From positions 1 to 35,907 of the forward strand of contig JAAYAN010000027.1 of the NCBI GenBank assembly GCA_012719345.1: DNA of 35,907 bases. The letters are read 5' to 3'. Of this stretch, positions 2,717-5,002 are shown in pieces; the stretch's first letter is position 1, and every line of letters begins with the position of its first letter. The DNA is from Ignavibacteria bacterium (GTDB taxonomy: Bacteria; Bacteroidota; Ignavibacteria; Ignavibacteriales; Melioribacteraceae). The notes beneath the pieces were generated by a model. That model ran no database searches. It was not told the origin of the DNA and saw nothing but the letters and a program-made list of their open reading frames with translations. The position numbers and the translations under genes are program-made.

Positions 2717-3415
2717 TTATTTTGAAATTTCTATAAGCTCAACTTCAAAAAGTAAAGTTTTTGCCGGACCGATTACAGGAGGTTTGCCTGATTCTCCGTA
2801 AGCGAGTTTGTATGGGATGTAAAGCTCAAATTTAGAACCGGGACTCATTAATTTTAAAGCTTCAGTCCAACCCGGAATTACACCAATAACAGGAAAAGTT
2901 GCAGTTTGACCTCTTTTGTAAGAATTATCAAATTCAGTACCGTCTATAAAATATCCTCTATAGTGCACAGTAACGCTGTTTGTATCATTAGGGCTGGGTC
3001 CTGATCCTTTTCTTATCTCTTTATACTGAAGACCGCTTTTTGTTGTAATAACACCGTCTTTAACCTTATTTGCTGCTAAATAGTTTTCACCTTCCTTAAT
3101 GTTTTTATCCTTTTCTGCTTTAGTGAGGCTGTCTTTTTCTGCCATTTTTTTAGAATGAAAAGCTACGAGAATATCAGAAATTTCTTGTTCACTTAATATC
3201 GGCATTTCAGATAAAGCATCTTTTAATCCTTTGGCGAAAATATCCGCTTCCACTTTTATTTCCTGCATTTTCATGGTTTGTCCGATATTATAGCCGATCG
3301 AATAACTAACCTTTTGCATTTCAGTTTTAAGGTCTTCTTTAGTTAATTGTTTTTCCTGAGCAGTTGTTAATAAATGAAATGAAGCAAACAAGATAATTAA
3401 TAGTATTTTTTTCAT
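2717..3415 (-). CDS. FKBP-type peptidyl-prolyl isomerase, exported
   Basis: It catalyses cis-trans isomerisation of peptidyl-proline bonds, probably as a folding helper for periplasmic or outer membrane proteins. The 232-residue product has a signal peptide (MKKILLIILFASFHLLTTAQ), an N-terminal FKBP_N dimerisation region (about 25-120, with VSYSIGYNIGQ), and a C-terminal FKBP domain (about 135-232) with VTVHYRGYFIDGTEFDNSY, VIPGWTEAL and the Y-G-E near residue 210. This arrangement matches the Mip/FkpA subgroup. AGGAG lies 5 bases before the ATG. The gene is monocistronic and convergent with the OmpA-family gene; a chaperone for that porin is a plausible but unproven role. Confidence 0.95.
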   Translation of the reverse strand: MKKILLIILFASFHLLTTAQEKQLTKEDLKTEMQKVSYSIGYNIGQTMKMQEIKVEADIFAKGLKDALSEMPILSEQEISDILVAFHSKKMAEKDSLTKAEKDKNIKEGENYLAANKVKDGVITTKSGLQYKEIRKGSGPSPNDTNSVTVHYRGYFIDGTEFDNSYKRGQTATFPVIGVIPGWTEALKLMSPGSKFELYIPYKLAYGESGKPPVIGPAKTLLFEVELIEISK

Positions 3416-3447
3416 TAAGACTCCTTTGGTTAAATTTTCTAGGCATT

Positions 3448-3476
3448 AAAATAATCTAATCTTAAAATAGTTCCAA
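3448..3476 (-). promoter_or_regulatory. Weak candidate promoter of the FKBP gene
   Basis: Read on the minus strand, TTGGAA (3476-3471) and TATTTT (3453-3448) are separated by 17 bases. The -10 box ends 32 bases before the FKBP start codon. Each box matches the consensus at only four of six positions, in a very A+T-rich region, so this is tentative. Confidence 0.25.
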
Positions 3477-3517
3477 TTTAAAAAAATTTCACTAAACTTT
3501 TTTAAATAATATTCGAA

Positions 3518-3543
3518 TATAATAATAAGGGATATGATATCCC
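3518..3543 (+). promoter_or_regulatory. TATAAT box followed by operator-like dyad
   Basis: TATAAT (3518-3523) is a consensus -10 box. Six bases later GGGATAT-G-ATATCCC (3529-3543) is a perfect 7-bp inverted repeat with a single central base, placed where transcription would begin. An RNA hairpin with a one-base loop cannot form fully, so a dimeric DNA-binding protein site is the simpler reading. No good -35 box was found at standard spacing. It precedes the 81-codon gene by 28 bases. Confidence 0.45.
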
Positions 3544-3571
3544 CGTTTATCATTTAAGCAGGGAGGCTAAG

Positions 3572-3817
3572 ATGGTTATTTCAAGGGTCATCTCGGATGC
3601 CGGCTCCTACAGTGCATCAGGCGTTATAAAGAGCAGTGACGCCAGATCGAATAACGATTCTGCCATTGGTGCTATCTCTGACGAACAGGCAAAGTTTAAG
3701 GAAAAACCCGACCCTTTAATTAGGGCTATAGTTGATCCGGAATTTGCTGAGAAGTCAAAAGATTCGTTAGAGTATAGGGAGCAAAAAAAAGGGATTTATG
3801 TTAATATGGTTTTATGA
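3572..3817 (+). CDS. Unidentified 81-residue protein, distinct composition
   Basis: I do not recognise this protein. It has the marks of a real gene: GGGAGG six bases before ATG, a TATAAT box and dyad upstream, and a strong terminator downstream. The first 37 residues are rich in Ser, Ala, Gly and Asp; the rest is charged (KFKEKPDPLIRAIVDPEFAE) and ends YVNMVL. There is no cysteine, no signal peptide and no membrane segment. The first 30 codons favour C-ending codons (GTC ATC GCC GGC TCC TAC AGC GAC), unlike neighbouring genes, and are about half G+C by hand count. The same stretch can fold as RNA: GATGC/GCATC (3596-3600/3614-3618) and an 8-bp hairpin at 3620-3643 with two G-U pairs. A highly expressed small protein, or RNA structure constraining the codons, would both fit. 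Confidence 0.6.
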   Translation: MVISRVISDAGSYSASGVIKSSDARSNNDSAIGAISDEQAKFKEKPDPLIRAIVDPEFAEKSKDSLEYREQKKGIYVNMVL

Positions 3818-3866
3818 AAATCTAACTAAATAGCCTTAGTCCTCAAAGCTTTAACAAAATCCTAAG

Positions 3867-3895
3867 CAGGCGGTTTAATACCGCCTGTTTATTTT
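3867..3895 (+). terminator. Rho-independent terminator after the 81-codon gene
   Basis: The stem CAGGCGGT (3867-3874) pairs perfectly with ACCGCCTG (3880-3887) around a 5-base loop and is followed by TTTATTTT. It lies between the small plus-strand gene and the convergent histidine kinase gene. The left flank is only moderately A-rich, so termination from the minus side would be weaker. Confidence 0.85.
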
Positions 3896-3901
3896 AAAAT
3901 A

Positions 3902-5002
3902 TCATTCTTTAATTATTGGAAGCTGAAAAGAAAAAGTGGAACCGATGCCAAGTTTGCTTTTTATAAATACTTTGCCGTTATGATCTTCAATTATTTTTTT
4001 TACAATCCATAAGCCAAGTCCTGAACTATCTTCGCCGGCGGTAGGCTTGGGAGTTAAAATTACACCTTTGTTGAATGCTTTTTTTACATCTTCTTCAGAT
4101 AGCCCGACCCCATTATCCGAGACTTCGACAGTAACATTATCTGAATTAAAATAAGTTCTTACATGGACAATAGTATTTGGGAGAGCATATTTTATTGCGT
4201 TATTCACAAGATTTTCAATTGCTTCTGTAATTTTATCGGGATCAATATTGTTTTTAGGAAGGCTGTTGGATGATTGATTAAGTAATTTAACGCCTTTTTT
4301 CTTTGCATAAGAAGCATTTTGAATGCAGATATTATCAATTATATTTTTTATAGAGGTCATTTCAAATTTCATTGTTTCTTCTGGTTTTTGCCTTGCCATA
4401 ATTTTACTTATTTCGTGTGCAAGTTTCACAACCTGATCTGAAGAGGTAGCAAGATTTTCGATGATTTCCTGTTGTTCGGTTGCATTCAAATCATACCCTT
4501 TTATCAAATCGATATATCCTTTTATTGCAGAAGCAGGATTCTTAATATCGTGGATAGCAATGGCAAAAAGCTCATCTTTTTGTTTTTGTAACTCTTCGAG
4601 GTTTTGTTTGGAAGTCTGCAATTTTATTTTTTGTTCGAGCAAAGTTGAATTGATTTCTTCAAGCTGGGAAATATTTGTTTCAAATTCTTTAATTTTTTGA
4701 ATTAATAATTCATTTTTATTTTGTTCGTTTTGCAGACTGGTTTTTAGTGAATTATATGAATGTCTTAAATTTTCATATTCCTCGGTTAAATTAAGTTTTA
4801 AAAGTTTTTTTAATGTATTATTTTTTTTGTTTTGAAAAAGGACTAACAATAATAGTAAAGCGACAACAATAAAAAGAAAAATTAAAATATAACTCTTCTC
4901 GGAAAAATCACTTTTTTCAGGTATTTGGGCATAATAAAAATCTGCAAATAAGGAAAACAGAATTAAGCTTTTAAATTGAATCTTGTTAAGCGTGTATTTC
5001 AT
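3902..5002 (-). CDS. Membrane-anchored sensor histidine kinase
   Basis: It autophosphorylates on histidine and passes the phosphate to a response regulator. Order in 366 residues: an N-terminal hydrophobic signal-like segment (about 10-25), a short extracytoplasmic stretch, a transmembrane helix (about 38-56), a long coiled coil (about 62-147), a HisKA dimerisation domain with H-box AIAIHDIKNP (His151), and a HATPase domain with N-box ENLVNNAIKYA (about 263-273), DNGVG (296-300) and GLGLWIVKK (328-336). There is almost no periplasmic sensor domain, so the signal probably comes through the membrane helix or the coiled coil. No response regulator gene is adjacent. GGAAAAATT precedes the ATG. 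It is divergent from purC. Confidence 0.95.
   Translation of the reverse strand: MKYTLNKIQFKSLILFSLFADFYYAQIPEKSDFSEKSYILIFLFIVVALLLLLVLFQNKKNNTLKKLLKLNLTEEYENLRHSYNSLKTSLQNEQNKNELLIQKIKEFETNISQLEEINSTLLEQKIKLQTSKQNLEELQKQKDELFAIAIHDIKNPASAIKGYIDLIKGYDLNATEQQEIIENLATSSDQVVKLAHEISKIMARQKPEETMKFEMTSIKNIIDNICIQNASYAKKKGVKLLNQSSNSLPKNNIDPDKITEAIENLVNNAIKYALPNTIVHVRTYFNSDNVTVEVSDNGVGLSEEDVKKAFNKGVILTPKPTAGEDSSGLGLWIVKKIIEDHNGKVFIKSKLGIGSTFSFQLPIIKE

Follow-up and report, generated by a model that had tools for sequence, protein, structure and literature searches.

Between the genes for an FKBP-type peptidyl-prolyl isomerase and a histidine kinase in a bacterium of the order Ignavibacteriales (Ignavibacteria) lies an intergenic stretch that contains an open reading frame and several expression signals. 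Is this ORF a genuine small gene, where would it have come from, and what might the signals around it do? The window, that is, the whole stretch of 35,907 nucleotides that was analysed, represents the entire contig C323 of a 4.02 Mb assembly in 323 contigs. The relevant features are the following.

2717..3415, minus strand: gene for an FKBP-type peptidyl-prolyl isomerase (PF00254, PF01346), divergent from the ORF
Intergenic stretch of 486 bases between the FKBP-type isomerase and histidine kinase genes, holding the next five features on its plus strand
3518..3523, plus strand: TATAAT, candidate -10 box, read from the sequence
3529..3543, plus strand: perfect 7-1-7 dyad GGGATATGATATCCC (GGGATAT-G-ATATCCC), read from the sequence
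3561..3566, plus strand: GGGAGG, putative ribosome-binding site, 5 nt 5' of the ATG at 3572
3572..3817, plus strand: orphan ORF P0001, 81 sense codons, from ATG at 3572 to TGA at 3815-3817
3866..3895, plus strand: intrinsic-terminator-like hairpin (9 bp, 5-nt loop; about 3866-3888) with a T-rich tail
3902..5002, minus strand: histidine kinase gene (PF02518, PF00512), convergent with the ORF

The TATAAT, the perfect dyad, the GGGAGG and the length of 81 codons given in the original prediction were all borne out on reading the sequence. The terminator that it described is present as well, the hairpin having a folding energy of -16.7 kcal/mol and a dyad core at 3868-3886; it is missing from the list returned by a consensus terminator scan. 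Taken together, the ORF and its signals would form a stand-alone transcription unit, with the FKBP gene divergent from it and the histidine kinase gene convergent. Elsewhere in the window, positions 1160-2632 encode a protein of the OmpA family that carries thrombospondin type 3 repeats. Our preferred reading, held as a whole with restrained confidence, is that P0001 is a genuine small coding gene, an ORFan as sampled, which was most likely acquired recently or built from two sequence sources.

Protein searches with the ORF recovered its own genome only among 97 relatives (1/97, E 0.01), among 79 genomes of the family (1/79, E 0.1) and among 395 genomes of the phylum (1/395, E 0.01). In the class-level set of 391 genomes, which overlaps with the other sets as these do with one another, six genomes besides its own matched the ORF at seven places (E 0.008-0.049 per genome), against about 20 expected by chance at that E limit. 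These weak matches were rejected as chance: four genomes match the same stretch of one long ORF (open frames of 300-876 aa), which we take to resemble the tail of ClpB/ClpC, and among the other places one has a stop codon and two fall within open frames, 387 and 526 aa long. Pfam, NCBIfam and PADLOC yielded no family for the protein, which agrees with the earlier statement that it has no recognisable domain, and the PDB gave no match. No relative was found among phages or plasmids, nor was the ORF found in GTDB contigs or IMG/VR by exact 8-residue words, a search that detects close relatives only. Two weak matches in PHROGs, one to an unknown (E 0.018) and one to an endolysin (E 0.1), were taken as chance. 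At the DNA level, four matches were obtained in the own genome, and the three listed are the gene itself and two short ones in the AT-rich upstream part; a repeated or mobile copy was rejected on the basis of these listed matches. A 24-base match in another genome (L065), 96% identical and antisense within a 721-aa ORF, was also attributed to chance, the surrounding ORF being unrelated by eye.

As far as sampled, the predicted gene is an ORFan. Because the window's genus is represented among the genomes searched by its own genome alone, with no other species, the word orphan may merely reflect poor sampling. The original prediction had proposed a homologue search, and had named the lack of a homologue in any related genome, together with the lack of a transcript over 3520-3900, as findings that would speak against it; no credible relative was detected in the relative, family, class or phylum genomes, and, as far as these searches sample them, the first of the two is what was observed.

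The base composition of the ORF is uneven. Its first 30 codons have a GC content of 0.478 and a C-ending fraction of 0.367, compared with means of 0.336 and 0.127 for the genes of the window, so the compositional oddity noticed there is real, but the best break falls after codon 47 and not after codon 30, with 16 of 47 codons ending in C before it and 0 of 34 after it. This start had also been described as unlike every neighbour; this holds for its C-ending codons, in which it is equalled by none of the 35 window genes, but not for GC, which is as high in one of them. In 46 of 209 mechanically called genes from about 300 kb of the same genome, some run of 30 codons has at least as high a C-ending fraction, and the C-rich start is therefore unusual, not unique. 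The break was equalled in 1 of 5000 codon shuffles, which allow for the choice of split (the position was picked by maximising) and not for the choice of base, and in 1 of 2,354 overlapping 81-codon windows from the host. For third-position G+C no break is seen (1560 of 5000 shuffles were as strong), and 22 of 204 host genes include 47 consecutive codons of which as many end in C. Over all bases, C amounts to 9% in codons 48-81 vs 23% before. The break is consistent with a composite or recently acquired origin of the sequence, without proving one; it could also be due to chance or be a consequence of the protein composition. Elsewhere in the genome, a 10.7-kb stretch (L080, G000:C2) has a GC content of 0.426 and 22.6% C-ending codons, the highest among the contig stretches compared, and may be DNA of foreign origin or a contig that contaminates the assembly.

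The gene had been proposed to be highly expressed. We built a ribosomal-type codon index from 27 ORFs (4,518 codons) of the ribosomal operon region, a few of which do not encode ribosomal proteins (presumably including secY, map and rpoA); C-ending codons are for the most part rarer in the ORFs of this region than in the genome sample. The index of P0001 is 0.487, vs a median of 0.590, and just 5 of 204 genes score lower. A second codon measure also places the ORF low, though less extremely so (-0.104; gene median -0.061), between the 5% point (-0.135) and the 25% point. Subject to the small size of the ORF, codon use speaks against high expression, and we rejected that proposal. The proposal of an acquired gene is still among the surviving options in view of the break and the low ribosomal-type index, although no donor was found.

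A possible but rather unlikely alternative is that P0001 is an old, fast-evolving small family gene, neither acquired nor new, whose relatives have diverged past detection. Small, low-complexity, probably partly disordered proteins quickly lose detectable similarity, and the nearest relatives are themselves distant: FKBP relatives were found in 72 other genomes, and none outside the own genome exceeds 59% identity. However, the atypical codon use and the composition break favour a newer origin, and no ORF match was found at 29 FKBP loci of those 72 genomes, including flanks of up to 1.5 kb in both directions, or, at E below 0.8, at 11 kinase loci of the 21 other genomes in which the histidine kinase was found. 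A moved copy could still exist despite these empty loci, because the neighbourhood is not conserved. Among the 29 FKBP loci only L030 has a kinase match (31% identity), and a conserved locus was rejected, as the neighbours are not kept together in relatives within the flanks examined. One relative of the neighbouring histidine kinase (G009:C7:148564-149619) carries four in-frame stops and is possibly a pseudogene.

We consider it unlikely that the ORF is a chance open frame in the intergenic stretch with little or no translation. Dinucleotide shuffling of the stretch produced an ATG-initiated ORF of 81 codons or more in 50 of 5000 trials (1%), and one as long in 109 of 5000 (2.2%) when GTG and TTG starts were allowed; since the genome has many such intergenic stretches and the 1% rate covers only one of them, this counts against a real gene. 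The failure to find a relative and the low confidence of the structure model point in the same direction. Against a chance frame, the codon statistics are gene-like in the frame of the ORF alone: with a coding score trained on codon usage in 35 genes of the window, the log-likelihood is +0.122 per codon in frame and -0.04 to -0.27 in the other five frames, and 0 of 2000 base shuffles reached the score of the ORF. It scores above 20 of 124 81-codon segments from window genes, a comparison that favours these genes, since the score was trained on them, and is at the low end of the real-gene range, yet inside it. A GGAGG within 20 nt is found at the ORF start and at one other (9192, a gene that we take from its sequence to be recA) among 24 starts with readable upstream bases (25 listed), of which 10 have any ribosome-site motif tried. 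In addition, the hairpin terminator stands 3' of the stop. In our judgement the predicted ORF is probably a real, self-contained small protein-coding gene, and the codon statistics, positive only in its own frame, support the original prediction on this point.

The 81-residue product is predicted to be hydrophilic, with an N-terminus rich in S, A, D and N that is probably flexible and a charged C-terminal half that is probably helical. A single-sequence AlphaFold2 model (mean pLDDT 55.6, pTM 0.15) has helices from residue 28 on, and is too poor to be read further than an unstructured N-terminus followed by a helical tendency. As to how such a gene might have been built from two sources, the leader and codons 1-47 could be foreign and joined in frame to 34 codons of native sequence at the end, making a composite newborn gene so recent that the break is still visible; this specific scenario is doubtful.

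The dyad had been called operator-like. As an operator it would make P0001 a regulated gene, perhaps one repressed by its own product. The perfect 15-base dyad does sit at the expected transcription start, and a self-regulator would require just one operator copy. However, the 4.02 Mb genome contains a single exact copy and no second, so that no regulon is visible, and 319 kb of it holds 14 further places with three mismatches but none with one or two. Dyads of this class are near chance level: the window has 36 with 7-base arms and a spacer of 0-6 bases, vs 30-43 in ten shuffles, and 9 with at least three G/C per arm (including the 3529 dyad and the terminator), vs 3-8 shuffled. Only the position of the dyad is therefore suggestive. 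The product has no domain recognised in Pfam, NCBIfam or the PDB, and in particular no DNA-binding domain, such as a small DNA-binding regulator would have, was recognised there; moreover, the same bases form a 5' hairpin as RNA. Altogether, an operator seems very doubtful. As for the promoter, a consensus scan listed no -35 box 16-18 bp 5' of the TATAAT, and the one sigma-70-type match in 3300-4000 lies elsewhere (3440-3468), vs a shuffle mean of 3.1. The 3529 dyad itself appeared in the output of the consensus terminator scan as terminator-like, on either strand. On the minus strand (3528-3544) it is followed by a T-rich tail, and so might additionally keep leftward transcription from running on toward the FKBP gene.

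As RNA, the dyad forms a hairpin of 6 bp with a 3-nt loop (-5.5 kcal/mol), located at the presumed 5' end or close to it. Several mRNAs are known to be stabilised by a stem-loop at their 5' end (PMC7509114). The present hairpin resembles the stem-loops described there in that it would stand at the 5' end, ahead of the ribosome site, but differs in its energy of only -5.5 kcal/mol and in that the start site is presumed. A stabilising 5' stem-loop would be at least as good a reading of the dyad as an operator. The suggestion of an mRNA with constrained structure found no support. The span 3529-3900, which includes the 5' hairpin and the terminator, folds at z -3.91, but 3545-3817, without these two hairpins, folds at z -0.83, and synonymous-codon shuffles gave z -1.00 and -0.71. 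Rfam had no match in the window at gathering score, and a structured or non-coding RNA was rejected, as the body of the transcript folds no better than shuffles.

Membership in a sigma-28 (flagellar) regulon, with the promoter readable as TAAACTTT-N11-TTCGAATA, is highly improbable: the genome carries flagellins (three flagellin-type matches over cut-off) and an FlgM match below cut-off, weak because the same search gives matches in 11 of 14 control genomes, over cut-off in three, but the site, good by eye, is a partial match that ranks only 114th in about 300 kb by a sigma-28 score of our own, and Pfam yielded no family for the protein, not even FlgM. An FlgM-type anti-sigma factor was likewise rejected, the only, weak FlgM match of the genome being located elsewhere and having no significant similarity to the ORF. 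Flagellin-type matches lie in L044 (G000:C157:14000-33999) and L045 (G000:C33:28000-33000); two ORFs of 114-115 aa, which presumably resemble FliS, stand after two of these matches, and a 1,720-aa ORF, which we take to begin like a TPR protein, is directly upstream of one.

If P0001 is, as we prefer, a genuine ORFan that was recently acquired or built from two sources, RNA polymerase would start near 3529, and the mRNA would thus begin with a short hairpin that may slow the decay of its 5' end. Ribosomes would load at the GGGAGG, and transcription would terminate at the 3866-3888 hairpin. The protein, at a modest and not a high level of expression, would most plausibly act, if at all, by binding a cytoplasmic partner. 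If expressed, it would be one more lineage-restricted small protein, and the internal break could help to show how such genes arise. Otherwise the locus is of little weight, serving as a worked example of how striking local signals, such as the dyad and the C-ending codons, shrink against genome-wide controls.

Among known systems, prophage morons are self-contained added genes with their own promoter and terminator. P0001 is like them in its predicted stand-alone promoter-ORF-terminator arrangement and its atypical composition, but differs in standing among chromosomal genes. A phage moron was rejected, since no phage relative was found, the neighbours are the FKBP, kinase and OmpA genes, and the other ORFs of the window are chromosomal by eye. 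Orphan genes are a common feature of bacterial genomes. According to PMC1559721 (2006), viral homologues exist for 2.8% of microbial ORFans, and the majority have none. P0001 shares with ORFans, or taxonomically restricted bacterial small genes, its shortness, the absence of a detectable homologue, the atypical composition and the signals of its own, and it shows nothing beyond what is usual among them; the sharp break in C-ending codons inside the ORF is unusual for the host genome. Overall, it is an ordinary ORFan in which a single measurement, the break after codon 47, is mildly unusual.
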